Below are positions 2,977 through 41,856 of a DNA stretch of 56,948 nt, piece by piece. The translations under genes were made by a program, and so were the position numbers. Source of the stretch: Desulfobacterales bacterium RIFOXYA12_FULL_46_15 (GTDB taxonomy: Bacteria; Desulfobacterota; Desulfobacteria; Desulfobacterales; Desulfobacteraceae); contig MGTJ01000044.1 of assembly GCA_001799395.1 (NCBI GenBank), positions 1 through 56,948 on the forward strand, given 5' to 3'. Below the pieces are notes generated by a model. The model worked only from the letters and a program-made list of their open reading frames with translations. It searched no databases and was not told the origin of the DNA. Position 1 is the first letter of the stretch, and every line of letters starts with the position of its first letter.

Positions 2977-3190
2977 CTTTATCTTATGGGGTCCGGGTCC
3001 TGGTTAACAACAGGGTCCGGCCGTGTTTAAAAGAATGAAATTATTATAGATTTTTCATACCTTTGTCAATGCGGCGAAAGGGAAAACTTTCTTTTTCCGG
3101 CTCCGGATATTTGATAATTGACAAAAACAAAAGCCCGTGTCAGATTGCGGCAATAGTTCGGTTTTATACCCTATATTTATAGGAACACGG

Positions 3191-26906: not shown

Positions 26907-28298
26907 ATGTCACAAAAAAAAGATAACATGCAAGGAGTAAAGCCTTTCCGTCTGGTCAAATTTTTTACATTCTCCTCTCTTGTGATAATGTTCACAGCCA
27001 CCATCGTCATCTCCACGCTCAATGCACACTGGGTTCGCAATATCCTTCTTGAAAAAAGTGAAGAATATGCATCCCTTCTAGTTGAAAACCTGAATCACCA
27101 AATCATTTCTAGATTCATGCTTCCTGCATTAGTACAATATGGCGAGATCAGATTACGGGAAAAAGAACAGCGTATTCTGATGGATAAAGTAGTCCGGTCA
27201 ACCCTGCACAGTTTCAATGTGGAGATGGTCACCATTTATGATGAGAATAATATCATATCTTACAGTTTTGATACTTCAAAAATAGGACAAAAAAATGCCG
27301 GGGGTTTTAATTATGAGAAAGCAATGAACAAAGAAGCCACATCAAGACTGACGCAACAAGGCAGTTTTCTTGAGCTGATGCTCCGGTTTCCCCAGGAAAC
27401 CAAAATCATCACATTTTCTCCCTTGAGCTATGCAGGGAACGTACTTGGTGTTGTCGAGATTGTTCGTGATGTTTCCGATGATTATAGAAAAGTATTTAAA
27501 CTTCAGAGGCTTATTATCGGCTCTTGTTTTATTGTCATGGGGATACTATTCATCGTACTTCGATTTGTGGTGAAGCATGGGGAAAAAATTATCGAGAGAA
27601 GGGCGGATGAGCGACTCAAGCTCGAAGAAAAACTTCGCCAGACTGAGCATTTATCAGCAATCGGTGAAATGACTGCAGGGGTATCTCATGAGATTCGAAA
27701 TCCACTTGGGATTATTAAAAGCAGTGCTCAATTATTAAAGAAAAAAATGGAAAAGGTCGATGCTCAATCCACTATCCCGGATATCATTATTGAAGAATCT
27801 GCCAGGCTTGATAATATTATTACTGATTTCCTGAATTTTGCCAGACCCAGAACACCGGATTTCCATCCATGCGGGATACAAAACATTATTGAAAAAAATA
27901 TTTCCTATCTCAGACCTCAGATAGAAGACAAGAACTTTAAAATTATTAATGAAATATCAGACCCGCTGCCTGAAATATTGGCTGACAGTGCCATGCTTTA
28001 CCAGGCTTTTTTAAATATCCTGATCAATGCATTCCAGTCTTTGAAAGAAAATGGTGTTATTATAATAAGAATGAAGCAAGCCTCCGGGTATATTGTAATT
28101 AATTTTATTGATAATGGAGACGGCATTCCGGAAGATGCCTTAAAAAGGATATGGACACCATTTTTTACAACAAAGGATACCGGCACAGGGTTAGGACTTG
28201 GTATTGTCAAAAATATTATTGAGGCTCACAATGGTATGATTACCATCACCAATGAGCCGGCACAAGGCGCAAATGTTGAAATCAGATTACCGGCTTAG
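26907..28298 (+). CDS. Membrane sensor histidine kinase, PilS/NtrB-like
   Basis: The 463-residue kinase has two membrane helices (about 15-42 and 195-220) that enclose a ~150-residue extracytoplasmic sensor region. HisKA follows with the phosphoacceptor in GVSHEIRNP, then the N-box ILINAFQSL and the ATP lid motifs DNGDGIP and GTGLGLGI. The next gene, 12 bases on, is a sigma-54 response regulator, so this is a cognate pair. Position next to pilMNOPQ suggests PilS, which senses pilin; a general ZraS/AtoS-type role cannot be excluded. A second possible ATG lies seven codons in (MQGVKP). Confidence 0.85.
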   Translation: MSQKKDNMQGVKPFRLVKFFTFSSLVIMFTATIVISTLNAHWVRNILLEKSEEYASLLVENLNHQIISRFMLPALVQYGEIRLREKEQRILMDKVVRSTLHSFNVEMVTIYDENNIISYSFDTSKIGQKNAGGFNYEKAMNKEATSRLTQQGSFLELMLRFPQETKIITFSPLSYAGNVLGVVEIVRDVSDDYRKVFKLQRLIIGSCFIVMGILFIVLRFVVKHGEKIIERRADERLKLEEKLRQTEHLSAIGEMTAGVSHEIRNPLGIIKSSAQLLKKKMEKVDAQSTIPDIIIEESARLDNIITDFLNFARPRTPDFHPCGIQNIIEKNISYLRPQIEDKNFKIINEISDPLPEILADSAMLYQAFLNILINAFQSLKENGVIIIRMKQASGYIVINFIDNGDGIPEDALKRIWTPFFTTKDTGTGLGLGIVKNIIEAHNGMITITNEPAQGANVEIRLPA

Positions 28299-28310
28299 GA
28301 GATAAGCAAA

Positions 28311-29681
28311 ATGGAAACCATACTGATTGTTGATGATGAAAAAAACTATCCCATGATTATAAGCGAGCTTTTGCAGGAAGAAGGTTACTCTTCCTTAACA
28401 GCTTCTGGAGGGATGGAAGCATTGGATATTTTAAACAATGAAATCATTGACCTTGTTTTAACAGATGTAAAAATGCCGGGAATCAGCGGGATTCAGTTAC
28501 TTGAAAAAATTAAAGAAATAAACCCCGATCTTCCGGTAATTATCATGACGGCTTACGGCAGTGTGGAAAAAGCTGTTGAAGCAATGCACAAGGGTGCATA
28601 CACATTTATCCTCAAACCTTTTGAAAACCAGGCACTGATCGCCCATATAGCCAAGGCCATTTCTGTTTACAGGATTGTTCAGGAAAACAGCATGCTGAGG
28701 GAAGCCGTCATCTCCAGGTTCAGCTTTGATAATATCATTGGGAAAAGCAAACCCATGCAGGAGATCTATGAAACAATTAAAAAAGTTGCACCATCAAATG
28801 CCAACGTGCTGATTGAGGGTGAAAGTGGTACGGGAAAAGAACTGGTGGCAAAATCGATTCATTATAACAGCCTGAGAAAAGGCAACCCCATGGTTGTCGT
28901 AAACTGTGCGGCATTTGCAGAAACCCTGCTTGAAAATGAATTGTTCGGCCACGAAAAAGGTGCGTTTACCGGGGCAAACACCCTGAAAAAAGGACGGTTT
29001 GAAATCTCAGACAAAGGCACCCTCTTTCTGGATGAAATTGGCGAACTGCCTATCTCCCTGCAAGTCAAGCTACTAAGGGTTCTCCAGGAAAAAACCATTG
29101 AACGGGTTGGCGGAACAGAATCCATTTCGGTGGACTTTCGCCTGATTGCAGCTACTAATAGAAATCTTGAAGATGAGGTCAAGAATGGAAATTTCAGAGA
29201 AGACCTTTTTTACAGGCTTAATGTTGTCAAACTGAAACTCCCTCCCTTGAAAGAGCGATCCGACGATATACCATTATTGATCAGACATTTTATTGATAAA
29301 TATACCCAAGGACCACAATCTGTAGGTAAAGTATCCGGGATTTCTCCTGAAGCCGTCAGAATTTTATGTGACTACAAATGGAAGGGTAATGTCAGGGAGC
29401 TTGAAAATGTGATAGAACGCTCAGTCATTTTTTGTAATGGTAATACTATAACCCCGGCCGATCTTCCGGCACAGCTCAGAAATAACCCTCCGGTTATTCT
29501 CGACGTTGACGGAATTCCCGAAGGGGCAGGACTGGCAGAAACCCTTGTTGCCGTTGAAAAACGAATGATACAAAAAGCCATGAAGCTTTCCGGTAACGTA
29601 CAAACAAAAGCTGCTGAACTTCTGGGAATCGGAAAAAGCGGGTTGAACCAGAAACTGAAAAAATTCAATCTCGATAAATAA
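28311..29681 (+). CDS. Sigma-54-dependent response regulator, PilR/NtrC-like
   Basis: The 456-residue protein has three domains. The receiver carries the acidic pair at residues 8-9 and phosphoacceptor D52 in LTDVKMPG. The AAA+ domain shows Walker A GESGTGKE, the sigma-54 contact loop GAFTGA and Walker B LFLDEIGEL. The C-terminal Fis-type helix-turn-helix reads VQTKAAELLGIGKSGLNQKLKK. It activates RpoN promoters by hydrolysing ATP. The ribosome site AGGAG is present. It is paired with the upstream kinase and followed by two terminators. Targets are not visible in this window; pilA, the usual target of PilR, is not present here. Confidence 0.92.
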   Translation: METILIVDDEKNYPMIISELLQEEGYSSLTASGGMEALDILNNEIIDLVLTDVKMPGISGIQLLEKIKEINPDLPVIIMTAYGSVEKAVEAMHKGAYTFILKPFENQALIAHIAKAISVYRIVQENSMLREAVISRFSFDNIIGKSKPMQEIYETIKKVAPSNANVLIEGESGTGKELVAKSIHYNSLRKGNPMVVVNCAAFAETLLENELFGHEKGAFTGANTLKKGRFEISDKGTLFLDEIGELPISLQVKLLRVLQEKTIERVGGTESISVDFRLIAATNRNLEDEVKNGNFREDLFYRLNVVKLKLPPLKERSDDIPLLIRHFIDKYTQGPQSVGKVSGISPEAVRILCDYKWKGNVRELENVIERSVIFCNGNTITPADLPAQLRNNPPVILDVDGIPEGAGLAETLVAVEKRMIQKAMKLSGNVQTKAAELLGIGKSGLNQKLKKFNLDK

Positions 29682-29961
29682 TATACTGGTTTAATATTAG
29701 TTCAAATCTGTAAACTATTCTTTGATCCCTTGGTAGATGCCGTATTTACGATGATGGCATGGACGGTTTTGTGATTCTTGATAAAAGATGAGTTTAAAAT
29801 CTTGAACCTGTTTATGATTTAACTCTTAAAATCACTCATTATCAAACCAAAGCTTTAATTATTTTTACTGAATAATCAATTAGTTAAAAATTTGGCAGAT
29901 TTCATATAAATTATTATGCCGATATCGTGGCATCTGGCAGGAATTTTGCTTTGTTAATCAT
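29682..29961. other. Intergenic stretch without recognisable gene
   Basis: Between the regulator gene and the first terminator hairpin lie 280 AT-rich bases with no open frame of useful length, no tRNA-like structure and no repeat that I can see. Confidence 0.5.
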
Positions 29962-29998
29962 TAACTAACATGGTGTTAGTTATTTCATCTTTTTTCCT
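29962..29998 (+). terminator. Intrinsic terminator after the pilS/pilR-like operon
   Basis: TAACTAACA, loop TGG, TGTTAGTTA form a perfect 9-bp stem followed by TTTCATCTTTTTTCC. It fits transcription termination of the plus-strand operon. Confidence 0.6.
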
Positions 29999-30001
29999 TT
30001 T

Positions 30002-30045
30002 CTTAAAAAGGCTGCTTCTGCAAATCGCAAAGCAGCCTTTTTAAG
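30002..30045. terminator. Bidirectional terminator between convergent operons
   Basis: CTTAAAAAGGCTGCTT and AAGCAGCCTTTTTAAG are a perfect 16-bp inverted repeat with a 12-base loop. A/T runs at the base of the stem work in both directions, so it can end both the regulator operon and the feo/YfgM operon arriving from the right. Confidence 0.8.
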
Positions 30046-30050
30046 TTTTA

Positions 30051-30737
30051 TCAATTCATTTCCTGAATCTTTCCTTTTGCAATTGAGATGTACATAGAAT
30101 CCTCATGGCCAGTCACAATTTTCTCATACATCTTTTTACTTTCACCCATATTCCCTGAAGCTTCATTCAGCATTGCCAGTGAAAATCTGGCCTCATCCTT
30201 TAATAAATCCGTTTTACCTTTTTCGATCTTAAGGAAATAGTCTTTTGCCTCATCATACTCTTTTCTGGCAATACATACATGACCCAGTGAAGCAAGAAGA
30301 AAATTTTTAATCAGCTCATCATTTTCAAATAGTTGCAGGGATTCTTTATAGTATTCATAACTTTGATCAAATCTTGAAGCCTCATAACAAATTTTCGCAT
30401 ATTGAACCTTGGCAAGCCTGCCTGCATTGGTATTGGCATATTCCGTAAAAATCATTTTAAAATCCGCTTCAGTTTCCAGAAACCCTTTTTCAGAATCATT
30501 TGTCTTTGCATATTTTTTTAATGCCTCGGTCACCAGAATATCAGCAGTGTTTTCAGCTTTCTGGAAACTGTACATAATACCTGAAAAAACAAGGCCCACC
30601 AGGACAACTGCACCTATTATCAGAATCAATTGCTTTTTAAATTCTTTTACATAAGCCATCACCTTTAATACATTTTCCTGAAAAGGATCCAATTGCTCCA
30701 GTTCTTTTTTCCGCTCTCTTGAGATTTTATCTGCCAT
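30051..30737 (-). CDS. YfgM-like membrane-anchored TPR protein
   Basis: The 228-residue protein has a charged cytoplasmic start, a single membrane helix (QLILIIGAVVLVGLVFSGIMY, about 36-56) and a periplasmic region of TPR-like helices. This matches the YfgM family, an ancillary chaperone of the SecYEG translocon. It is the last gene of the feo-side minus-strand cluster, 39 bases after the SH3 gene. In Enterobacteria yfgM is linked to bamB and der, but not here. Confidence is moderate because the repeats are degenerate. Confidence 0.65.
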   Translation of the reverse strand: MADKISRERKKELEQLDPFQENVLKVMAYVKEFKKQLILIIGAVVLVGLVFSGIMYSFQKAENTADILVTEALKKYAKTNDSEKGFLETEADFKMIFTEYANTNAGRLAKVQYAKICYEASRFDQSYEYYKESLQLFENDELIKNFLLASLGHVCIARKEYDEAKDYFLKIEKGKTDLLKDEARFSLAMLNEASGNMGESKKMYEKIVTGHEDSMYISIAKGKIQEMN

Positions 30738-30776
30738 TGTCTTTTCCGCCTTAAAAAATTATATTGATTATTCGAT

Positions 30777-31235
30777 TTACCACACAAGTGTATTATGAAT
30801 CCAGCCGACATCGCCATCGGCATGTTGAATTTTAATCCAATTTACTTTTTTTTCCAGAACCTTGAAGGGGACCCCTTTATCCACCGTAAACAGTATGTTG
30901 CTCTTTACATCGGGTTTAGACCGGACATTGGATTTATCTTTAATCGTAATCACACTGTCAACTTTACCCAAGAGTGAATTATGAAGCCAGGCCACATCAT
31001 TTTCATAATCTTTGACTTTATACCAGTTCCCTTTTTTTTCAATCACAATGAAAGGATGATATTGTTCAACCTGCCATAAAACGCTATCCTCCGTTCCAGG
31101 CCCTGACCGCATATTCGCAATACCGGCAACTACAGAAAGCCTCTCCTCTGCCCAAGCAGGACTCGGCAATAAGAATATTGAAAAGACAGCACCAATTATC
31201 AGTCTTTTATAAACAGCCATTTTGAAATGCTTCAT
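30777..31235 (-). CDS. Exported protein with two bacterial SH3 repeats
   Basis: The 152-residue protein has a signal peptide (MKHFKMAVYKRLIIG..., cleavage after PSPAWA) and two tandem SH3-like domains. Each begins with the pattern xxANMRSGPG or xSNVRSKPD and ends with the echo WLHNSLLG or WIHNTLVW. Such domains bind cell-wall peptides or act as adaptor modules. The ATG at 31235 has GGGAG upstream; the frame runs on into the end of feoB but that part is not a signal peptide. It starts 26 bases after feoB. A link to iron uptake is not established. Confidence 0.75.
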   Translation of the reverse strand: MKHFKMAVYKRLIIGAVFSIFLLPSPAWAEERLSVVAGIANMRSGPGTEDSVLWQVEQYHPFIVIEKKGNWYKVKDYENDVAWLHNSLLGKVDSVITIKDKSNVRSKPDVKSNILFTVDKGVPFKVLEKKVNWIKIQHADGDVGWIHNTLVW

Positions 31236-31261
31236 AAAAGTCTCCCTGAGCCTTCCATATT

Positions 31262-33433
31262 TTAACCTGAACCCAACATCATTCCTGCCCGATATACCAG
31301 AAATGACATGCTCCATGCAACCATTGTCGTATAAATCAGATTAAATCCAGCCCATATAGCAGAGGCTTCTCTGTAAATGGTTATAACAGTCGCAAAGCAA
31401 GGCACATACAATAAAACAAAAACCATTATCGAAAGAGCGGAAAGAGCGGTCATCCCTGATTTTTTCAGGGCTTTTTCAAGCGCCTCCCCACCTTGGTTGC
31501 CGACACCATATAGTACACCCAGGGTACTAACCACAACTTCTTTGGCAACAAAGCCGGAGACAAGGGCAACGCTTGGCTGCCACCCAATACCAATGGGTAA
31601 GAAAAACGGTTCCAATGCCTTTCCCATTCTACCGATATATGACTTTGCAATCCGCTCCTGTTCCTGCTTATGATTAATTTCTGTTAAAATTAATGACAAT
31701 TGGAGGGTTAATGAACCAACCTCCTGGGTGCCTGCCGATGATATCTTTTCGGCATATTCGGATTTTACAGAACGAATCTTCGTATCATAATCCTCTGAAT
31801 AGGATATTTGTTTTGGAAAATTTGAAAGCACCCAGATAATAATAGAACCGACAAGGATAACACCGCCCATTTTTTTTAAAAACATTTTACCCCTATCCCA
31901 CATGTGAATCATAAGGCTCTTGAACATGGGGATTCGATAAGGAGGCAGCTCCATTATAAAAGGTGCTTCTTCCCCTTTGAACAAAACGCTCCTTAATAAC
32001 CTGCCGGACAGGATAGCAATGATAATCCCTGAAAAATATAAACCAAATATCACCGTGCCTGCTTTATCCGAAAAAAAACTCCCTGCCAACACAATATAAA
32101 CAGGAAGCCTTGCTGAACAGGACATAAAAGGTGTCATGAGAATGGTCAGAATTCGGTCCTTCTTGCTCTCCAGTGTTCGGGTGGCCATAATGGCAGGAAC
32201 GTTGCAACCAAAGCCCATCAACATCGGGATAAAGGATTTGCCATGGAGCCCGGCAGTGTGCATTACTCTGTCCATTAAAAAAGCAGCTCTTGCCATATAG
32301 CCCGTATCTTCAAAAAGGGCGATACAGAAAAACAGGATAAGAATATTGGGAAGAAAAACAATAACACTTCCAATCCCTGCGGTCACCCCATTTATAAGGA
32401 GATCTTTTAACATTGATGGTGGGAGGTTTTTTTCAAGGTTCAAAGACAAAAATGAAACTGCGCTTTCAATCCATCCCATGGGGTATGCGCCAAGTGAAAA
32501 GGTCAATTGAAACATGACCCAGATAAAAAAAATAAATACCGGTATCCCAAAGAGCCTGTCTGTCAGCACAAGATCAATATTTCTCGACATATCGATCCGC
32601 TTGCTGGCCAGATTGGTTACGGTTTCTTTTACAATCCCGGCAATAACCCCATACCGGTCATCAGTCAATACCATCTCAAAATCATCCTCAAACAGATCTT
32701 GAATTCTTTTCCGGCATTCACGGGCAGCCTGAAATATCTTTTCCTCAGATGAGGATGACATGCTCTGAAGTTTTGCTTTAATAACCTTATCATCTTCAAG
32801 AATTTTTATTGCATTCCAACGTGATAATCCTTCCATGTTGACGCCTGACTCAACCAATTGGTTTTCAACACTTGAAATACAGGTTTCTATCGTATGACTG
32901 TATCTGATGGGGCGGCTTTCTTTCCCTTTATTAAATCGTTTTATTTCATCAATGGCCGTCTCTATGAGATGATCCATTCCTTTGTTTTTATTGCCGATGG
33001 TAAAAACAACAGGTAATCCCATCAATTGGGACAGCTTTTTCTCATTGATCTGAATCCCTTTTGCTTCTGCCACATCAGCCATATTTAATACAAAGATGAC
33101 AGGTCTTCCCAGCTCAAGGATTTGAATGGCTAAAAAAAGGCTTCGTTCAAGGTTAGAGGCGTCAATGATATTGACAACCATATCCGGGCGTTCATTGATG
33201 ACAAAATCTCTTGCTGTAATTTCTTCAATTGAAAAGGGGGTCAGGCTGTAGGTTCCGGGAAGGTCAACAATTGTCAGGTCATAATCCTTAAACTTAAGCT
33301 TTCCTTCTTTTTTCTCAACTGTCACCCCAGGCCAGTTCCCCACCTTCTGACGGGCACCGGTCAGATTATTAAATATGGTTGTTTTACCGCAATTGGGATT
33401 TCCGGCAAGGGCAAGAGTGATCTTTTTATTCAT
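31262..33433 (-). CDS. feoB: Ferrous iron transport protein B
   Basis: FeoB imports Fe2+ through the inner membrane. The 723-residue protein has an N-terminal G domain with G1 GNPNCGKTT (residues 11-19), G3 DLPG and G4-like NMAD. A GDI-type helical spacer follows, then a C-terminal membrane part with two Gate domains (LPNILILFFCIALFEDTGYMAR and GCNVPAIMATR). Length is at the usual value. The start overlaps the upstream Fur-FeoA gene by 8 bases, so translation is coupled. In an anaerobe rich in Fe-S enzymes this is likely the main iron importer. Confidence 0.96.
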   Translation of the reverse strand: MNKKITLALAGNPNCGKTTIFNNLTGARQKVGNWPGVTVEKKEGKLKFKDYDLTIVDLPGTYSLTPFSIEEITARDFVINERPDMVVNIIDASNLERSLFLAIQILELGRPVIFVLNMADVAEAKGIQINEKKLSQLMGLPVVFTIGNKNKGMDHLIETAIDEIKRFNKGKESRPIRYSHTIETCISSVENQLVESGVNMEGLSRWNAIKILEDDKVIKAKLQSMSSSSEEKIFQAARECRKRIQDLFEDDFEMVLTDDRYGVIAGIVKETVTNLASKRIDMSRNIDLVLTDRLFGIPVFIFFIWVMFQLTFSLGAYPMGWIESAVSFLSLNLEKNLPPSMLKDLLINGVTAGIGSVIVFLPNILILFFCIALFEDTGYMARAAFLMDRVMHTAGLHGKSFIPMLMGFGCNVPAIMATRTLESKKDRILTILMTPFMSCSARLPVYIVLAGSFFSDKAGTVIFGLYFSGIIIAILSGRLLRSVLFKGEEAPFIMELPPYRIPMFKSLMIHMWDRGKMFLKKMGGVILVGSIIIWVLSNFPKQISYSEDYDTKIRSVKSEYAEKISSAGTQEVGSLTLQLSLILTEINHKQEQERIAKSYIGRMGKALEPFFLPIGIGWQPSVALVSGFVAKEVVVSTLGVLYGVGNQGGEALEKALKKSGMTALSALSIMVFVLLYVPCFATVITIYREASAIWAGFNLIYTTMVAWSMSFLVYRAGMMLGSG

Positions 33434-34415
33434 TTTTTCTATTTTTAAACCCTATTTTCTCTACAAGGATGTTTGCAGCCTCCTCGACCCGCAGCGACAT
33501 GTGATATCCTTTAACAACGATTTCAATCGGATCTTTTAACGGTGCATATTTTTCCACATAAATCGCAGTGCCCCTGTTGATTCCCATTTCAAGCAAGCGC
33601 CGTCTCAGCACACCTTCTCCCGCGACCTTCCGGACAATGCCTTCCTGGCCTGATTTCATTCGGCTGAGCAGCAAGGTCTCCTGTGGTGGCTCACCGAAAT
33701 CCTTGTTACCTTCAATGTCCCGGTCCTGTTCTACTGACTGATTAAAAAGCTGAACCATAACCTTCTCAGCCATGCCTTTACCGAGAACCATCCGGTTATC
33801 ACCATTTGCAATAACCACTTGGCCACCAAAGCCGGTAGATACAATTTCAATCAGATCTCCTATTTTCAAACCCATTGACGATATTCGAAGTTGCATATTT
33901 TTACCGGCTTCAAGTTCTTTTACAATGAGCTTTTCACCTTTTTTCGCCTTATGAAGCGGAACAAGCGGGCTTCGGTCCTTCAGGCAATTGGAACAAATGC
34001 CATAGATCTCCATTTTATGCTGAAGCATATGGAATCCATAGGCTTCAGCAACTATCAGTTGTTGTTTTTCGAGGGCTTCATCCTTGAATTCCAGAATCAT
34101 ACCGCATTTTGTACAAACCATGTGGTCGTGGTGTAATCCGAGATGCCTGTGTTCGTATTGGGTTTCCTTATCTTCAAACTCTATTTTAGTTGCAAACCCG
34201 AACTTGTATAAAAGTTCCATACTGCTGAGTACAAATCCTTTTTCAAGATGGGCTTTATCCTCTTCAAGCTGTGCAACCAGATCATTGATGGTGACATGAT
34301 GTTCAAGTTTTAAGAAAGCTTCAAGAACCAGGAGTCTGGAATCAAAACGGTCAATTCCCTGCTGTTGGAACAATCTTTTAAACTGCTTTTTTTCATGCTC
34401 GTGTGTGTCGATCAT
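33426..34415 (-). CDS. Fur-FeoA-FeoA fusion protein
   Basis: This 329-residue protein combines three modules. Residues 1-150 are a Fur-family repressor: a winged helix region, the metal motif HHDH (95-98) and two structural CxxC pairs (C101/C104, C141/C144). Residues about 151-225 are a FeoA SH3-like domain (LRISSMGLKIGDLIEIVST). Residues about 247-320 are a second FeoA domain (RRRLLEMGINRGTAIYVEKY). FeoA normally is a separate ~80-residue cytosolic partner of FeoB, and Fur a separate regulator. Here the sensor and the transporter partner are one chain, encoded just upstream of feoB with an 8-base overlap. I infer that it senses iron, regulates its own operon and may contact FeoB. Helix-turn-helix details were judged by eye. 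Confidence 0.88.
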   Translation of the reverse strand: MIDTHEHEKKQFKRLFQQQGIDRFDSRLLVLEAFLKLEHHVTINDLVAQLEEDKAHLEKGFVLSSMELLYKFGFATKIEFEDKETQYEHRHLGLHHDHMVCTKCGMILEFKDEALEKQQLIVAEAYGFHMLQHKMEIYGICSNCLKDRSPLVPLHKAKKGEKLIVKELEAGKNMQLRISSMGLKIGDLIEIVSTGFGGQVVIANGDNRMVLGKGMAEKVMVQLFNQSVEQDRDIEGNKDFGEPPQETLLLSRMKSGQEGIVRKVAGEGVLRRRLLEMGINRGTAIYVEKYAPLKDPIEIVVKGYHMSLRVEEAANILVEKIGFKNRKNE

Positions 34416-34447
34416 ACCCTCTTTTCCTTAAAATAACAGTGTAAGAT

Positions 34448-34476
34448 ATTATAGCAGCCGACTTATGTCAAGAAAA
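34448..34476 (-). promoter_or_regulatory. Candidate promoter of the Fur-FeoA/feoB operon
   Basis: On the minus strand a perfect -10 TATAAT (34453-34448) lies 17 bases from TTTTCT, a weak -35. It is 33 bases upstream of the start codon. No clear classical Fur box was seen. Confidence 0.45.
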
Positions 34477-34534
34477 TGGAAATCCAAAATTTATGGCTAA
34501 TTTTAGCAGATACCAACTAAAGAGCAAAACTATC

Positions 34535-34563
34535 TTGACAATATATTTGTTCCTCGGTTAGTA
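34535..34563 (+). promoter_or_regulatory. Candidate promoter of the Dus-like gene
   Basis: TTGACA is followed after 17 bases by TTAGTA. The -35 is perfect and the -10 weak. The start codon lies about 40 bases downstream. Confidence 0.35.
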
Positions 34564-34604
34564 ATCAGCATGTTTATCATAACCCTTATCAAACGCACAT
34601 TATA

Positions 34605-35627
34605 ATGGATGAGCCACTTTCCCGATATCTTGTTAAAAACCTGGCCATAAAAGACCGTGTAATTCAAAACAGAATTATCCTGGCACCCATGGCAGGACTT
34701 GGGCATATAGCCTTAAGACACCTTATCTCTGAATTCGGGGGGTTTGGGCTCCTTTTTACCGGGATGTGCAATGCCAAAGCCATTCCCAATGAAAATCCCA
34801 AAACATCATCGGTTTTCAAATGGCGGAAAGAAGAACTCGGATACCTTGTCTGCCAGATTTTTGGCTCTGACCCGGAAAGCATGGCGGCCGCTGCTGTACG
34901 TATTGAACAAGAAGGTTTTTTTGGTGTCGACCTGAATTTTGGTTGCTCTGTTGCTGCAATCTGCAAAAAAGGATGTGGTGCAGCACTTTTAAAAAATCCC
35001 GATCTTTCATCCAGAATTGTAAAGTCTGTTAGAAATGCCGTATCCATTCCGGTTTTTGTGAAATTCAGAACAGGCTGGAAAAATGATCCTTTGTTTGTCG
35101 CGGATATGGCCGGACGGTTTGAAGAAGCCGGGGCTGATGCGCTCACCTTTCATCCGAGGGTAGCGCCGGACAGGAGGACCCGCCCTCCCCAATGGGATAT
35201 GATACGGATTGTTCAGGAAGCCGTCGCTATCCCTGTGTTCGGCAATGGGAATCTTTTTGAAGAAAAAGATGGAATTCAAATGTTCAGGCAGACATCCTGT
35301 CAGGGCCTTTCTATCGGCAGAATGGCCGTTGCAAGACCCTGGCTGTTTGCCCAGTGGGCAAACAAATTCATGCCCGGCAATGATATTTATTATAAAACAG
35401 CCTTAAGGTTTTCAGAAATTCTTTCAGATCACTTTGATGATCTCTTTTCCGTCAGGCTTTTTAAAAAATATGCCCCCTATTTCTGTGCCAATTTCAAATT
35501 CGGCCATCAATTCCTAAAAAAACTTGTTTGTGCAGAAACCATGACTGATATCAGAAACAACCTTATATCCATCTTTGAATCCAACCCGGAAACCCTCCCA
35601 AGGCCAAACATTAATTTATTCTTATAA
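34605..35627 (+). CDS. tRNA-dihydrouridine synthase-like flavoenzyme
   Basis: The 340-residue TIM-barrel protein resembles Dus enzymes, which reduce uridines in tRNA with FMN. Family traits are the opening IILAPMAG, CQIFGSDPE, the active-site strand GVDLNFGCSVAAICKKG with the catalytic Cys, GAALLKNP, FVKFRTGW and the FMN site VFGNGNLF...GLSIGRMAVARPWLF. The active-site loop departs from the usual NxGCPxxKV: Pro is Ser and the basic residue is displaced. It thus may be a divergent Dus or another flavin reductase. No convincing ribosome site precedes the ATG. It is divergent from the feo operon. Confidence 0.75.
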   Translation: MDEPLSRYLVKNLAIKDRVIQNRIILAPMAGLGHIALRHLISEFGGFGLLFTGMCNAKAIPNENPKTSSVFKWRKEELGYLVCQIFGSDPESMAAAAVRIEQEGFFGVDLNFGCSVAAICKKGCGAALLKNPDLSSRIVKSVRNAVSIPVFVKFRTGWKNDPLFVADMAGRFEEAGADALTFHPRVAPDRRTRPPQWDMIRIVQEAVAIPVFGNGNLFEEKDGIQMFRQTSCQGLSIGRMAVARPWLFAQWANKFMPGNDIYYKTALRFSEILSDHFDDLFSVRLFKKYAPYFCANFKFGHQFLKKLVCAETMTDIRNNLISIFESNPETLPRPNINLFL

Positions 35628-35683
35628 AATGGAATATATTAGATATAAATTTATACTTTGATATAAAATTTAGAATTTTATTC

Positions 35684-35712
35684 TTGACTTATATGTTATT
35701 TTAGATGATTAT
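35684..35712 (+). promoter_or_regulatory. Candidate promoter of lysA
   Basis: TTGACT, 17 bases, GATTAT. Both hexamers match well and lie 32 bases before the ATG. The region upstream is strongly AT-rich with two GATATAAA copies. Confidence 0.45.
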
Positions 35713-35743
35713 TCATTAGGTTAATATTCTATTGGAGATCATC

Positions 35744-37027
35744 ATGAGCCTTGCATCCCATATATTGAAAAAAATAGCAGAAACCCATGGAACCCCGACC
35801 TATGTATACGATATAGACCGGATCAAAGAAAGGTATCAATATTTCCAGGCGGCCTTTCCATGGCCCGGACTGACTATCTGTTATGCCATGAAGGCCAATT
35901 ACAACCCTAATATTTTAAGAACCCTGCGTTCCCTTGGGGCTTTCATTGATGCTGTGAGTCCAGGGGATTTATATATGGCCATGGCATGCGGGTTTAAGGC
36001 TTCCCGGATCATATACACAGCCAATAATATGAAAGATTGTGAAGTCGATGAAATTATGAAAACAGGGGTTCTGATGAATATCGGATCTTTGTCCCGGCTT
36101 GAAAAATATGCTGCGAAATACCCGGGCACAAGGCTATGCCTCCGATTCAATCCGGATGTTGTGGATGGTGAACACGACAAAATCAAAACCGGCGGAGATC
36201 TGACAAAATTCGGCATTCTTCTGGAAGATGTGGACAAGGTTCTCAGGGTTGCCAGAGATCACAAACTCAAAATTGTCGGGCTTCATGAGCATACAGGCTC
36301 AGGACTGATCAAACCGGATTCCATATTAAATTCAATGAAAAACATCATGTCTGTTGCCACACAGAATAATTTTCCTAACCTTGAATTTTTGGATTTTGGC
36401 GGCGGGTTTAAAGTGCCCTATGGACCTGATGAAACAGAAATAGATTATAAACTCGTGGGCCAAGATATCGTCGCATTATTTTCCAGTTTCTGTGATAGTT
36501 ATGGGAAAAAACTCGGCCTTTATTTTGAACCTGGAAAATTTCTTACTGCAAAGGCAGGATGTCTTCTGGTTGAAGTCAATACCATTAAAACCAACCGTAA
36601 AAAAACAATCTGTGGAACTGATTCAGGATTTCCCCAACTGATTCGCCCCATGTTTTACGATGCTTACCACCATATTGAAAATATCAGTAATCCGGAAAGT
36701 GACAAAATAGAATATGATATCTGCGGGAATATCTGTGAAACAGGTGACCTGTTTGCAAAAAACAGACTTATCAGCCGGATCAGGGAAAAAGATCTACTTT
36801 CCATCAATGATGCCGGGGCTTATTGCTATGCCATGGGCGGCGTTTACAACCTTCGTCCCATGCCGGCAGAGGTTGTGGTTGAAAACGGCCGGATAATGCT
36901 TTCCAGAAGAAGAAAGACATCAGAAGACCTGATTCTTTCAATCCTTGAAGAAAGCATCGGCATTCACCCCGGCCAGCTCAACAAGCATTCAAATGAAGCT
37001 TGTTATCAAACCTTAGTGGGTGCCTGA
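35744..37027 (+). CDS. lysA: Diaminopimelate decarboxylase-like PLP enzyme
   Basis: LysA makes L-lysine from meso-diaminopimelate. Counted from the ATG at 35744 the 427-residue protein has the fold III PLP lysine K50 in CYAMKAN. It has the HEHTGSG and DFGGGF motifs, the phosphate-binding EPGKFL, and the substrate Cys region CGNICETGDLF, which fits a dimeric decarboxylase of DAP or a related amino acid. The usual EPGR is EPGK. The ATG has TTGGAG at good spacing; an in-frame TTG at 35732 overlaps that site and is rejected. The next gene starts 2 bases after the stop. Confidence 0.85.
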   Translation: MSLASHILKKIAETHGTPTYVYDIDRIKERYQYFQAAFPWPGLTICYAMKANYNPNILRTLRSLGAFIDAVSPGDLYMAMACGFKASRIIYTANNMKDCEVDEIMKTGVLMNIGSLSRLEKYAAKYPGTRLCLRFNPDVVDGEHDKIKTGGDLTKFGILLEDVDKVLRVARDHKLKIVGLHEHTGSGLIKPDSILNSMKNIMSVATQNNFPNLEFLDFGGGFKVPYGPDETEIDYKLVGQDIVALFSSFCDSYGKKLGLYFEPGKFLTAKAGCLLVEVNTIKTNRKKTICGTDSGFPQLIRPMFYDAYHHIENISNPESDKIEYDICGNICETGDLFAKNRLISRIREKDLLSINDAGAYCYAMGGVYNLRPMPAEVVVENGRIMLSRRRKTSEDLILSILEESIGIHPGQLNKHSNEACYQTLVGA

Positions 37028-37029
37028 TC

Positions 37030-37377
37030 ATGGATTTGTCACACTTCAAATGCCTCAAATGCGGTGCCTGCTGCCGTCAGGAAGGGTATGTCCGGCTTGA
37101 AAAAAATGAAGCAGACATCATTGCAGGCTTTCTTTCAATGGATGTTCTCAATTTTATTGAAACCTTCACGATGCTTACAAAAGACAGGTCAGGCTTATCC
37201 CTAATAGAAAAAGAAAATGGTGACTGTATATTTCTGACTGATGCGGGCTGCCGCATTAATGCCGTTAAACCCCGCCAATGCCTTGAATTCCCTGTCAAAT
37301 GGAAATTCAAGGATTTTGAAAATATCTGCGCCTGGGCTGCAACGGCACTAAAAAAAACAAAACGATTAAAGACCTAA
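37030..37377 (+). CDS. YkgJ-type CxxCxxCC cluster protein
   Basis: The 115-residue protein begins with FKCLKCGACCRQEGYV, the CxxCxxCC motif of the YkgJ family (zinc or Fe-S binding). A later CIFL...GCRINAVKPRQCLEFP completes the set of conserved cysteines. The biochemical role is not known for the family; some members sit next to methyltransferases or flagellar genes. The ATG at 37030 follows the lysA stop by two bases. Its end overlaps the convergent 98-residue gene by 12 bases. Confidence 0.8.
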   Translation: MDLSHFKCLKCGACCRQEGYVRLEKNEADIIAGFLSMDVLNFIETFTMLTKDRSGLSLIEKENGDCIFLTDAGCRINAVKPRQCLEFPVKWKFKDFENICAWAATALKKTKRLKT

Positions 37378-37662
37378 AATGCTAAGCCCTTCTTCAAGTT
37401 CAAAATAGGGCTTCAAGTCATAGGTGTAACCCGGGACGCCAAAATAAATGGCCAGGCTTTCCCCGATGGCCTTTAACCCTTCTGCCAATCTGTTGTTGTC
37501 TAGTTCATAAAATGTTATGGAATTCATGCCGCCTGTCATACTGGAAGAGACATAAGGCCCTCTTTTGGTCAGAAATTCCGGCAGAGCAGGGGCTTTAAGA
37601 TATCGTCTTGCAATCTCTTTTGTGCTTTCAGGGGGATAAGTAACATTTGAAATAATGACCAT
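37366..37662 (-). CDS. Small protein of unknown function (98 residues)
   Basis: I do not recognise this protein. It has no signal peptide or membrane helix. It is rich in Tyr, Pro and Gly with the stretch GGMNSITFYELDNNRLAEGLKAI, which suggests a small alpha/beta (ferredoxin-like) fold. A strong AAGGAGAGG ribosome site precedes the ATG, which supports it being a real gene. It is divergent from yedF and tail-to-tail with the YkgJ gene. Confidence 0.6.
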   Translation of the reverse strand: MVIISNVTYPPESTKEIARRYLKAPALPEFLTKRGPYVSSSMTGGMNSITFYELDNNRLAEGLKAIGESLAIYFGVPGYTYDLKPYFELEEGLSILGL

Positions 37663-37889
37663 GGGCCTCTCCTTTTCAATCGTTTATTATGACAGGTGTC
37701 AACAAAATATTTTCATATATGGCCTTTGCTGTCAAACCTTTTTAGAAGCCGACACTGAATTTGAGCATTTTTACCACCCTGTATCCGGATTGTCTATGAT
37801 AATTCAGATTTCCATTGGATATTACTATTTGACGAAGATCATAAGACTTCATACTATCAACGATGAAATAATTACAAAAGGAGTGCGCC

Positions 37890-38507
37890 ATGGGAAAAAA
37901 AATACTCGATTGCAGAACGCTTCAATGTCCGGCACCGGTTCTGAAGACAAAACAATATCTGGAGCAAGAAGCAGCAGTTGAAATTAACGTTATTGTTGAT
38001 AATGACGCAGCAGTTGAGAATGTCAGCCGGTTTCTAAACTTCCAGGGATTTAGCGTCTCTGTTGACTCTGATGGACACTCTTCAACGGTTGCAGGCCTTA
38101 GAGACCCTGAAAAAGCGAAAAAACTTGAAATAAGCCCGGGATCGATAACGTCCAGGGAAAACTCCGACCACCAGAAAATCCTTATAATGATTTCTTCCCA
38201 AAATATAGGGAAAGGAGATGATGAACTCGGACAAAAACTTATGATCAATTTTATTAAAACCTTGAAAGAGATGGGAAACGACCTCTGGAGAGTTGTTTTT
38301 GTCAATCATGGCGTAAAATTTGCTACAAAAGGATCAGCAATCCTTGATGAGCTTGTGGAATTGGAATCCGCCGGTGTCAATATCCTGGTTTGCGGCGCCT
38401 GCTTGACCCATCTTAAATTACTGGAAGAAAAAAAAGCCGGAGAAACAACCAATATGCTGGATATTGTAACATCCATGCAACTGGCTGATAAAATAATTAA
38501 TTTGTGA
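37890..38507 (+). CDS. yedF: YedF-type sulfurtransferase-like protein
   Basis: The 205-residue protein has an N-terminal TusA-like domain with the CPxP motif (LQCPAPVLKTK, C13), a sulfur or selenium carrier site. The C-terminal domain resembles DsrE/F (ILIMISSQNIGKGDDELGQ ... LVCGACLTHLKLLEEK). This fusion is known from selenium metabolism loci in many anaerobes. The AAAGGAG ribosome site is clear. There are no selD or selA genes nearby. It could also deal with sulfur transfer in a sulfate reducer. Confidence 0.85.
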   Translation: MGKKILDCRTLQCPAPVLKTKQYLEQEAAVEINVIVDNDAAVENVSRFLNFQGFSVSVDSDGHSSTVAGLRDPEKAKKLEISPGSITSRENSDHQKILIMISSQNIGKGDDELGQKLMINFIKTLKEMGNDLWRVVFVNHGVKFATKGSAILDELVELESAGVNILVCGACLTHLKLLEEKKAGETTNMLDIVTSMQLADKIINL

Positions 38508-38563
38508 TTGTTATAATAACCTGGAGTCAGAATCTACACCCTGTAACCCTTGAATCCCTTGTC

Positions 38564-39856
38564 TTATTTATTTGTGACAAAAAAATCATCAATGATTTTC
38601 TGTTTTTTTAATTCCTGCCCATAGGCATCAGCGCTTTTTTTATCCACAAATTCAGAGACCCGGACAACAAACCATGTCTTGCCCCCGCCATCCACTTTTT
38701 TTACGGTTGCCTCAATGTCTTTTTTCTTCAGGTGATTCACATAGGTGTCGGCAAATTCTTTTTTCAGATATGCCGACACCTGAATTGTAAAGGGTTTAAC
38801 TACCGGGGTGTCAATTTTTTCCTCCATTTTTTCATCAGGTGCGGGCTTAGGTTTAGGTTTAACCATATGGAACATTGTATTGATAATAAAAACCATAAGA
38901 CAGATGGAAACAAAACCCAGGAATCCTGTTTTCAGATAAAATTTTATCCTTTCGTGATCTTTGATAAATTCATAAACCCGATGAATAGATAAAATCAAAA
39001 AGCTGAAAACAGAACCGACAAGGCGGGTTGCAAATTGAATCAAAAGCCCTGCTTTTTCAAAAACAGCCCATATATATCTTCCAGCCTCAATCTTCTTTGC
39101 CGCCTTTGTTTTTTTAACCGGTTTTATTTCAGACTGGTAATAAGGCTTTTGCTTTTCAAGGGTTTCACCAGGTCCGGATAGAGTGTCACCAGGAGTATCC
39201 GGATATACTTTCGATCGTGAAGGGGTTTTTTGCACCTGCCGATACAATTTTTTTAAAGTATAATCCCTCCTTCCGAGTTTCTGAAAAATTTCCGTTATCA
39301 ATGCCGACAAAGTTTTATTGGCATAAGATGTCTCAGCAATAAGGGTCAATACTTCCTGTTCCATAGAGGTTATCATCCGCAATTTCTGCACTTGCCTGAG
39401 CCATCGTTCGGCTATATCTTCGTCGCCCGGATTCATCTTCAAATATGTGGCTGTAGCAAGACTGAAATTCTCATTCCCGGCTGATGTATTGAGTTTGAAT
39501 CTTGCTACGGCAGCCGATATTTTCCGGGTTGTCTTTTTTGCCGAAAACACACCGGGAAGGAAAGTATCATATAGTCTTAAGGCCCTGTTATATTTTTTTT
39601 CCGCTTTATTGTTAATACCGGCCATTTCCCATGCCTGACCTTCTTTGATAAGATTTTGCACTGTATTTTTTGCAAGCCTATCCATCAAAAATCCAATCAA
39701 TAAAATGAATCCGCTAATCATGATCAACAAAACCCATAAGGGGTTAATTCCTGGGAAAAACCTTGTAAAACCAGGTATTAAATAAAACCCAAGCGGTATG
39801 GTCAAAAGGGAGGTAATCCAGAGGCGAACACCGATATTTCTTAATAGCCATATCAT
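38564..39856 (-). CDS. Membrane protein with C-terminal SPOR domain
   Basis: The 430-residue protein has two N-terminal membrane helices (about 10-30 and 40-60), a helical, charged cytoplasmic region (60-290) with TPR-like features, and a third helix at about 303-325. A Pro/Lys linker follows, then a SPOR domain (about 355-430; FTIQVSAYLKKEFADTYV, WFVVRVSEF). SPOR domains bind denuded peptidoglycan at the division septum. The start overlaps the stop of the PBP1A gene by 4 bases. It is the last gene of the yggT-divIVA-pilTU set. It suggests coupling of wall synthesis to a septal or polar site. Confidence 0.8.
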   Translation of the reverse strand: MIWLLRNIGVRLWITSLLTIPLGFYLIPGFTRFFPGINPLWVLLIMISGFILLIGFLMDRLAKNTVQNLIKEGQAWEMAGINNKAEKKYNRALRLYDTFLPGVFSAKKTTRKISAAVARFKLNTSAGNENFSLATATYLKMNPGDEDIAERWLRQVQKLRMITSMEQEVLTLIAETSYANKTLSALITEIFQKLGRRDYTLKKLYRQVQKTPSRSKVYPDTPGDTLSGPGETLEKQKPYYQSEIKPVKKTKAAKKIEAGRYIWAVFEKAGLLIQFATRLVGSVFSFLILSIHRVYEFIKDHERIKFYLKTGFLGFVSICLMVFIINTMFHMVKPKPKPAPDEKMEEKIDTPVVKPFTIQVSAYLKKEFADTYVNHLKKKDIEATVKKVDGGGKTWFVVRVSEFVDKKSADAYGQELKKQKIIDDFFVTNK

Positions 39857-41856
39857 TGTTGTTTATCCCGGCATAATTGCTGTTCCGTCTTTAAAGGAAC
39901 CATCATCCGTTCTCGGCCACCCGTGCTTTCTTCCGGGGCGCATCCTGTTACCGTATCCACAGCCTCAAAATGAACATTGTCGGGAATCGGGAAATCCCTC
40001 TCAGGATCTGAGTTCAAGGCATTTATCATAAAATCGGCCCATATGGGTGCAGCTCCTCTTCCTCCGGTAATGCCGACATTGTGGCTATCCAAAAGCTTTT
40101 TTTCCTTATCAAACCCGGTCCAGACAGAGGTACATAATGTGGGGGTAAACCCTGTAAACCAGGCATCATTGAAGCTGTCCGTAGTCCCGGTCTTCCCGGC
40201 GGCGGCCCGGTTAAAACCGAGCGCCCGGATGGATTTCCCGGAACCGATATCAATAACGGATTTCATCATATCCACCAGTTGGTATGTAATGGAAGGGTCC
40301 AGCACTCTTTTTTCCTGGACAATGTGCTCATAAAGAATCCTGCCGTATGCATCTTCAACACGCCAGAATAAAAAGGGCTCATGCATGACACCAAGAGTCG
40401 CAAAAACCGAATAGGCAGCGGCCATTTCATAAGGCGTAACATTGGAAGTCCCAAGGGCCACGGAATAGACCTCCTGCAGAGGGCTTTCAATACCGCATGT
40501 CCTTGCGGTCCTGATCACTGCATCAGGTCCGGCTTTTTCCACCATCTGGGCGGCTATTGTATTAACTGACTCGGTTAAGGCTTTCTTAAGAATCATTTGG
40601 CCGGTAAAGGTTTTGCTGAAATTCCGGGGCTCCCAAGCTGCAGCCCCTTTTACCGGGATAATAACCGGTTTGTCCGTCAGAACGGTAGCCGGATGGAATC
40701 CCAGGTCCTTTAATGCCGTATAATATAGAAAGGGTTTAAACCCGCTTCCAGGCTGCCTCCTGCTCTTTGTGGCCCGATTGAATTCACTCTCATAATAATC
40801 CCTTCCGCCGATCATGGCTTTTACCGCTCCAGACCCTGTATCAATGGCGACAAGGGCTCCCTGGGGATGATCGACACCATTATCGGTTATTCCCATCATA
40901 CCGTCGAGGTTTTCAAGCCCTTTCTTCAGCGCCTGCTGAGCATAGGATTGGAGTTTTGTATCAATGGTTGCATAAACCCGGATCCCGCCATGATAGACAA
41001 CATCTTCCCCATATTTTGATATCAGTTCGCTGATCATGGCATCCAGAAAATAACTTCCGGTTCTTGAATCAGACTGCTGACGGTGAAACACAGGCTTTGT
41101 CATCGCAGCCTCCCGGGCTTCGGTTTCAGAAATAAACCCGGCCTTGGTCATTCTGATTAAAACAATATCCCGCCGTTTGAGCGCAAGATCATAATGCCTG
41201 AAAGGGTTGTAATTTGTTGGGGATTTCGGGAGTCCGGCGAGAAGCGCGGCTTCCGGCAGAGTTAAATTAAGCGCTGATTTTCCAAAAAAAACCTGGGCAG
41301 CTTTTTCCACACCTTGAGCTCCGGCCCCAAAATGTATCTGGTTGATATATGTCTGCAGTATCTCTTCTTTTGTGTTGGAGGCTTCTATCTGAAAAGATAC
41401 GAGTAGTTCTTTAAGTTTTCGGGATAAGGTTCTTTCAAAACTGAAAAAAAGATTTTTAGCCAGTTGCTGGGTAATAGTGGATGCCCCTTCCACTTTTCCG
41501 GATTGAGACGTCAATGTCACATAAAGGGCTTTCAATGTTCTAAGCTTATTCACACCTCGATGTTTAAAAAAAAGATGATCTTCTGTTGCAAGAATGGCGT
41601 TGATAAAATTTTTTGACACCATGCCCAGAGAAACAGCCTGCCTTTCGCCAAGACTTATCAGAACCTTCCCGTTTGAAGCATAGATCTGGGTCTGAGGGAT
41701 TTCTATCATTTTGCTTAGGGGTGCCGGCAGTTTTGGTAGATCTTTTGTTATATGAAAAACCAGAAACATCCCGCTAAGACTTCCGATGGAAATGAGGATC
41801 AGCCCCATAAAAAAACAGAACCGGACAATGGCTGAAACCCTTAAAAAAAGATTCAT
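39853..41856 (-). CDS. Class A penicillin-binding protein (PBP1A-type)
   Basis: This 667-residue bifunctional enzyme polymerises and cross-links peptidoglycan outside the inner membrane. One N-terminal membrane helix (about 10-32) precedes the GT51 glycosyltransferase with the catalytic region ATEDHLFFKHRGVN. The transpeptidase domain has the active serine in PGSGFKPF (SxxK), the SVN motif in TESVNTIAAQM and KTGT. Length is slightly short for PBP1A. The gene overlaps its neighbours on both sides by 4 bases, showing tight co-translation with the unknown 291-residue protein and the SPOR protein. Confidence 0.93.
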   Translation of the reverse strand: MNLFLRVSAIVRFCFFMGLILISIGSLSGMFLVFHITKDLPKLPAPLSKMIEIPQTQIYASNGKVLISLGERQAVSLGMVSKNFINAILATEDHLFFKHRGVNKLRTLKALYVTLTSQSGKVEGASTITQQLAKNLFFSFERTLSRKLKELLVSFQIEASNTKEEILQTYINQIHFGAGAQGVEKAAQVFFGKSALNLTLPEAALLAGLPKSPTNYNPFRHYDLALKRRDIVLIRMTKAGFISETEAREAAMTKPVFHRQQSDSRTGSYFLDAMISELISKYGEDVVYHGGIRVYATIDTKLQSYAQQALKKGLENLDGMMGITDNGVDHPQGALVAIDTGSGAVKAMIGGRDYYESEFNRATKSRRQPGSGFKPFLYYTALKDLGFHPATVLTDKPVIIPVKGAAAWEPRNFSKTFTGQMILKKALTESVNTIAAQMVEKAGPDAVIRTARTCGIESPLQEVYSVALGTSNVTPYEMAAAYSVFATLGVMHEPFLFWRVEDAYGRILYEHIVQEKRVLDPSITYQLVDMMKSVIDIGSGKSIRALGFNRAAAGKTGTTDSFNDAWFTGFTPTLCTSVWTGFDKEKKLLDSHNVGITGGRGAAPIWADFMINALNSDPERDFPIPDNVHFEAVDTVTGCAPEESTGGRERMMVPLKTEQQLCRDKQQ

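Follow-up and report, generated by a model that had tools for sequence, protein, structure and literature searches.

A gene of the Desulfobacterales bacterium RIFOXYA12_FULL_46_15 joins a Fur-type metal sensor to two FeoA domains immediately ahead of feoB, and we tentatively favour the reading, at somewhere near an even chance, that its product would be an iron sensor that has given up promoters and instead controls FeoB by way of its FeoA domains. The fur-feoA-feoA fusion gene (33426..34415, minus strand) lies in a window of 56,948 nucleotides, the whole stretch of DNA that was analysed (contig MGTJ01000044.1 of GCA_001799395.1). A sequence-only reading of the window had proposed a Fur repressor that switches between DNA and FeoB. 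The part of that proposal that places a metal sensor and FeoA in one chain before feoB, with complete sensor sites, holds good; we favour a sensor acting on FeoB over the switch itself, on evidence from DNA-reading residues, promoters and gene order.

The gene starts with ATG and encodes 329 amino acids (protein P0001). Pfam profiles matched FUR (PF01475) on residues 25-138 (E 6.3e-22; 78.4 bits versus a cut-off of 23.1) and FeoA (PF04023) in two stretches (E 1.5e-33; 115.2 bits in total versus a cut-off of 23), which custom profiles mapped to residues 152-224 and 248-321. All three modules are above their cut-offs, and the single frame of Fur and two FeoA modules is thereby borne out, as are an HHDH motif at residues 95-98 and two CxxC motifs at 101/104 and 141/144. 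No DtxR-family and no FeoC (PF09012) match to the protein was found in Pfam at E≤1. The overlap of the fusion gene with feoB, also noticed earlier, is indeed 8 bases (33426..33433). feoB itself (31262..33433, minus strand) encodes 723 amino acids with FeoB_N, FeoB_Cyto, two Gate stretches and FeoB_C, and its product matches TIGR00437 at E 2.4e-199.

An AlphaFold2 model of the fusion, made with 54 window and locus sequences, has a mean predicted local distance difference test score (pLDDT) of 87.6, the domains being mostly confident and their placement relative to each other uncertain (predicted template modelling score 0.43). When the whole predicted model was compared with the PDB by Foldseek, Fur-family chains (Fur, PerR, Zur, Mur) made up 49 of the 50 matches listed and FeoA one; the winged-helix half alone had no confident match to a solved Fur (best 3eyy, E 0.16). 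The predicted fold is thus that of the Fur family, a winged helix followed by a dimerization domain. In the DNA-binding-type half (34164..34391, minus strand; residues 9-84), helices and strands like those of a winged helix-turn-helix are predicted, and the metal-binding and dimerization half follows (33972..34163, minus strand; residues 85-148). Next come the first FeoA domain (33744..33962, minus strand; residues 152-224), which is the one fused to Fur throughout the clade, a variable linker of partly low confidence (33675..33743, minus strand; residues 225-247; mean pLDDT 51 at residues 231-240 and below 50 at 235-241) and the second FeoA domain (33453..33674, minus strand; residues 248-321).

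All 12 Fur metal-ligand positions are present in the window fusion, H40 in the winged-helix half and E88, H95, H96, D97, H98, C101, C104, E116, H133, C141 and C144 in the metal half. The residues that read DNA have fared differently. In reported Magnetospirillum Fur-DNA structures, bases are read by Tyr56 and Arg57, with Lys15 reaching into the minor groove; an R57A variant showed no DNA binding, and the value for K15A was 977 nM versus 85 nM (PMC4506495). Lys15, Tyr56 and Arg57 align with Asp22, Leu63 and Ser64 of the window fusion, in a register taken from a profile alignment and one weak pairwise alignment (3eyy, E 0.16) rather than from structural superposition. The canonical Lys, Tyr and Arg are therefore all replaced: in the L1 loop GIDRFDSR (34335..34358, minus strand; residues 20-27) Asp22 stands for the canonical minor-groove Lys/Arg, and in the recognition helix region (34203..34244, minus strand; residues 58-71) the canonical T-V-Y-R reads F61-V62-L63-S64.

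This combination of kept sensor and lost reader is general among the relatives. In 92 distinct fusions (36 three-domain, 56 two-domain), from which identical domains were left out together with those no longer than about 100 residues or scoring below 40 bits (dropped rows being L028 and L085, truncated, L101, interrupted, and low-scoring paralogues), all 12 metal ligands are found in 91. Tyr63 occurs in none of the 92, Arg/Lys64 in four and Lys/Arg22 in two, position 22 being Asp or Glu in 82. The corresponding figures for 43 unfused Fur proteins are 42/43, 42/43 and 35/43 (gap in 7), and the sole unfused exception, L139, belongs to the fusion clade as a split gene. From the phylum list 20 additional loci were picked (L224 may repeat the species of L137), and they gave 18 further fusions, 17 of them without the DNA-reading motif; in these distant proteins H40, E88, H96 and H98 are kept in 18/18, and several are without some of the other ligands. 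Since the DNA-reading residues are replaced, the fusion protein is, judged by its sequence, a Fur homologue rather than a canonical Fur repressor, and the "Fur repressor" of the sequence-only reading, moving between DNA and FeoB, is not supported, the loss being shared across the clade.

The loss extends beyond single positions. In a set thinned to 61 fusions and 27 unfused Fur proteins at 80% identity, the ratio of identity in the winged-helix half to that in the metal half was 0.70 in fusions (bootstrap 0.67-0.72) and 0.94 in unfused Fur (0.90-1.00), and variability at positions 63 and 64 was 2.89 and 2.28 bits in fusions versus 0 and 0.69 in unfused Fur. Residues 58-71 carry on average a net charge of -1.0 in fusions versus +1.2 in unfused Fur. 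What is conserved in the L1 loop is an acidic character, not a basic one, with Asp or Glu at positions 22, 25 and 26 in 52, 55 and 49 of the 61 fusions; because of this conservation the change looks like more than decay, and the loop appears to have been rebuilt.

The promoter side gives the fusion clade no general Fur box. A 17-base delta-proteobacterial Fur box (dFUR) upstream of feoAB and fur has been described by Rodionov and others (PMC545781). Allowing up to three mismatches within 200 bases upstream, it was found before 6/90 fusions versus 2.4 expected from shuffles (two of the 92 had too little upstream DNA) and before 16/43 unfused Fur genes versus 1.7 expected; it is barely above chance in the first case and clearly enriched in the second, which again tells against the repressor claimed earlier. 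In the sorted match list, the window fusion has no dFUR box with up to four mismatches within 200 bases upstream. A promoter-like site, TTGACA-17-TATCTT (34443..34471, minus strand), lies in DNA that is conserved across the genus, and sites of this type are no commoner than chance (1 found, 1.2 expected in shuffles). A pattern built on this operon promoter stretch occurred once per genome, before the fusion operon, in 6/6 genomes, and a backward control pattern gave 3 matches in two of the six. A regulon was considered and rejected, as in the six genomes searched the promoter element had no other occurrence. No RNA element reached the Rfam gathering score in 28000-40000.

The fusion is widespread. 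Fur and at least one FeoA domain in one match were counted, from the matches listed, in 43/58 related genomes (the match in G018 ends at the contig end, and G047, with split genes, was left out). In a sample of the phylum, at least 67/395 genomes have a match that spans Fur and the first FeoA domain wholly or partly at E≤2.4e-57, a count that rests on match span, not every frame being checked. Five weaker matches among those listed have a similar span; L206, L207 and L208 are fusions, and in L205 and L209 the genes are split. Relatives with the fusion include Desulfotignum, Desulfocicer, Desulfobacter latus, Desulfoluna and many Desulfobacterales metagenome-assembled genomes; outside the phylum it was met once, in L140, a record titled Lentisphaerae. 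Confinement to a clade, which the sequence-only reading had asked about, applies to the three-domain form, found mainly in the window's family (Desulfobacteraceae, Desulfotignum, Desulfobacter) with separate cases in L029, L041, L093 and L216, and not to Fur-FeoA, which is spread over the phylum.

Mis-assembly or a frameshift was rejected as the source of the fusion: many genomes have the frame uninterrupted, the three-domain frame recurs in 36/92 distinct fusions, and one intact example comes from a single-contig genome (G008 = L006). The possibility that relatives carry the parts as two genes does not hold for Fur and the first FeoA domain and holds in part for the second, which is a separate feoA gene between Fur-FeoA and feoB wherever a two-domain fusion lies ahead of feoB (21/56). 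Three gene orders were seen: fur, feoA, feoA and feoB as four genes (L149, L209); a Fur-FeoA gene with a separate feoA between it and feoB, the order of many relatives; and a Fur-FeoA-FeoA gene followed by feoB, as in the window's family and a small number of others. This series suggests the route by which the fusion arose. Scoring adjacency as a same-strand feoB no more than 1.5 kb downstream, and setting aside the 8/92 fusions without enough downstream DNA, feoB or feoA-feoB follows 55/84 assessable fusions (34 three-domain, 21 two-domain). FeoB is present somewhere in the genome in 54/56 relatives.

If the fusion serves FeoB, a Fur paralogue that no longer reads the Fur box, and that would not bind DNA specifically in vivo, would sense cytosolic Fe2+ at its intact Fur metal sites. 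The signal would pass via the FeoA domains, and perhaps via the winged helix too, to the FeoB encoded by the neighbouring gene. Filling of the Fur sites by Fe2+ would change the Fur dimer and with it the seating of FeoA on the FeoB G domain, and the altered seating would slow or stop iron import. In the natural FeoAB fusion of Bacteroides fragilis, FeoA is reported to slow GTP hydrolysis by FeoB, and the signal that dislodges FeoA was left unknown by the authors (PMC8980893); by analogy, a Fur sensor in one chain with FeoA would serve as that FeoA-removing signal. A broader form of the proposal is more venturesome, and we consider it plausible at best: a widespread Desulfobacterota clade of Fur proteins would have left DNA, its dimer reporting cytosolic Fe2+ to the FeoB G domain via FeoA, and would thus be a sensor-bearing equivalent of FeoC that supplies the missing signal to turn ferrous iron import off.

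Alternatively, the fusion may still be a transcriptional repressor, one that reads another operator with a re-made recognition helix and in which FeoA acts internally, like the SH3 domain of DtxR and MntR, to hold the DNA-binding form. We regard this as a strong rival and the main one, a little less probable than the FeoB sensor. All three DNA-reading positions are changed, two mostly to acidic residues, positions 63 and 64 are highly variable within the clade, the recognition region is on average negatively charged, and a shared operator was not found, the promoter element being confined to one copy per genome. On the other side, the prediction retains the winged-helix fold, and 46/92 fusions have Arg or Lys at position 63.

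Several further observations weigh against a sensor dedicated to FeoB, and some of them favour such a repressor. The fusion is the only Fur-family match in 19/41 fusion-bearing genomes, several of these 19 being assemblies less than 85% complete, and seven of the 19 (G007, G010, G023, G030, G041, G046 and G055) are also without a DtxR match; three of the seven are at least 92% complete, G046 reaching 99%. In those seven genomes the fusion may be the only Fur- or DtxR-type iron regulator. One-mismatch dFUR boxes precede two fusions, L132, where a canonical fur lies just upstream, and L033, where the palindrome stands 29 bases before the fusion in a genome (G055, 92% complete) with no other Fur match. 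PgMntR, which has twin FeoA domains, is reported to bind DNA and to lose binding without the second FeoA (PMC4805248). Nor does feoB follow every fusion: 29/84 do not precede it, 8 contigs being too short to tell, and in G049 a gene for the second FeoA domain precedes feoB without any Fur match.

The loss of DNA-reading residues also counts for less than its frequency implies, being largely one evolutionary event. In a tree without the recognition columns, the 82 fusions used group together with the split L139, apart from 42 unfused Fur proteins and 25 paralogues, with a Shimodaira-Hasegawa-like approximate likelihood-ratio (SH-aLRT) value of 94; the tree was made by a quick method on 128 columns and is hence not strong. 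A seemingly independent fusion, L206, has a canonical SIYRS helix and is the one exception among the 18 further fusions; it is probably a second, independent Fur-FeoA fusion event. This gene (L206:2721-3548, minus strand) is a Fur-FeoA before feoB and offers a natural control for the residue loss. Replacement is not wholly peculiar to fusions either, as 24 of 28 further unfused paralogues have Tyr and Arg/Lys and four deviate. The deviating helices read T-V-N-R in L179, L182 and L183 and T-L-Y-Q in L184, and an L076/L202 paralogue likewise reads T-V-N-R.

The loci in which feoB does not adjoin the fusion raise another explanation, that the protein acts on a partner other than FeoB, such as the neighbours of the solo copies, or is an iron store or chaperone, the feoB linkage being secondary. 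Eight of nine loci without feoB that were inspected have at least one neighbour in common, so that the fusions there have to work in trans or on a different target, and in the window genes for SH3-domain and tetratricopeptide repeat (TPR) proteins directly follow feoB. We consider this explanation unlikely, considering that 55/84 assessable fusions, and 34/36 of the three-domain form, precede feoB or feoA-feoB and that FeoA is the known FeoB partner domain. The neighbours shared by these Fur-FeoA genes are a small Zn-ribbon protein, a radical SAM protein, and phosphatase-like, SH3, kinase-like and TPR proteins, of which the Zn ribbon and radical SAM were Pfam-checked in one case each and the others read by eye. 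Subsets of this neighbourhood recur in L103, L105-L107, L110, L112, L116 and L128, and L137 shares none. The SH3-domain and TPR genes of the window (30051-31316) are on the same strand as feoB, and lookalike genes occur near Fur-FeoA genes elsewhere. Two three-domain fusions, L032 (= L097, Desulfobacter latus) and L095, are also without an adjoining feoB, which speaks against a constant tie to FeoB; their second FeoA domains are strongly diverged (39-45 bits versus 91-156 in most).

A canonical Fur with the YR pair is found beside or near the fusion in L114, L127, L132, L215, L216 and L220, which fits a division of labour between the two proteins. The same proximity, together with an intact dimerization and metal half beside degenerate DNA-reading residues, would also suit an indirect regulator, in which the fusion is a DNA-binding-defective subunit that blocks canonical Fur in mixed dimers and FeoA serves as a tether; a role of this kind has been proposed for FUR2 of D. 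desulfuricans (PMC545781). Nineteen genomes, one of them single-contig, have no other Fur match with which the fusion could pair, although several are below 85% completeness, and the window's own genome (G000) likewise offers no partner. We therefore think mixed dimers very improbable. A candidate second Fur in that genome, a weak match on C220, was rejected, as it falls within a frame of 399 amino acids that is ATPase-like by eye. Several Fur proteins with a canonical helix have HHCH instead of HHDH (L048, L114:5897-6331, L127:3980-4414, L132:3974-4414, L215:293-760, L216:134-607 and L220:239-685), and all except that of L048 adjoin or lie near Fur-FeoA genes. The window's genome also holds a second feoA-feoB (L201, G000:C162:1-9000), with feoA at 2924-3157 on the plus strand; divergent from it is dtxR (C162:2345-2545, minus strand), the genome's one DtxR-type (PF02742) match.

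A natural chain of iron sensor and FeoA allows a direct test of how FeoB is switched off at sufficient iron. If the sensor reading is true, Fur-annotated proteins in such bacteria are not safely transcriptional repressors, and regulon predictions are affected. Among the titles and starts of abstracts listed from the open-licence PMC literature, we found no description of Fur-family proteins with FeoA domains and clade-wide loss of DNA-reading residues. Domain databases probably list the Fur-FeoA architecture. FeoA joined to a further, unnamed domain has already been found, as have paired FeoA-like domains within a single protein, and operons with multiple FeoA proteins are said there to merit study (PMC8749426).

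Compared with known systems, the fusion resembles the Fur family (PF01475) in its predicted fold, its dimerization and metal half and its metal ligands, and differs in that the clade has replaced Lys, Tyr and Arg, carries one or more C-terminal FeoA domains and mostly has no upstream Fur box. FeoC has a winged-helix fold. Though once suggested to be a transcription factor, FeoC is an earlier example of a cytosolic protein with a post-translational action on FeoB (PMC10710835, PMC8749426), as is proposed for the fusion; E. coli FeoC has an Fe-S motif and not Fur sites, the fusion has no PF09012 match, and FeoC is rare in the group, scoring above the PF09012 cut-off in 4/56 relatives, two of them strongly. 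FUR2 of D. desulfuricans is likewise a Fur sensor without a working DNA-reading half, but it lacks the DNA-binding domain altogether, and the section that describes it mentions no FeoA domain (PMC545781). In Bacteroides fragilis FeoAB a FeoA domain is also coupled to FeoB function, with the difference that FeoA is fused there to FeoB and in the window to the metal sensor (PMC8980893). Metal regulators with FeoA domains are already known in the DtxR family. FB2, the transporter of the PgMntR operon, is of the FeoB type. As in the window, PgMntR places a metal-sensing winged-helix regulator before two FeoA domains in one operon with this metal transporter; its sensor, as described, is DtxR-type and keeps DNA binding, whereas that of the window is Fur-type (PMC4805248).

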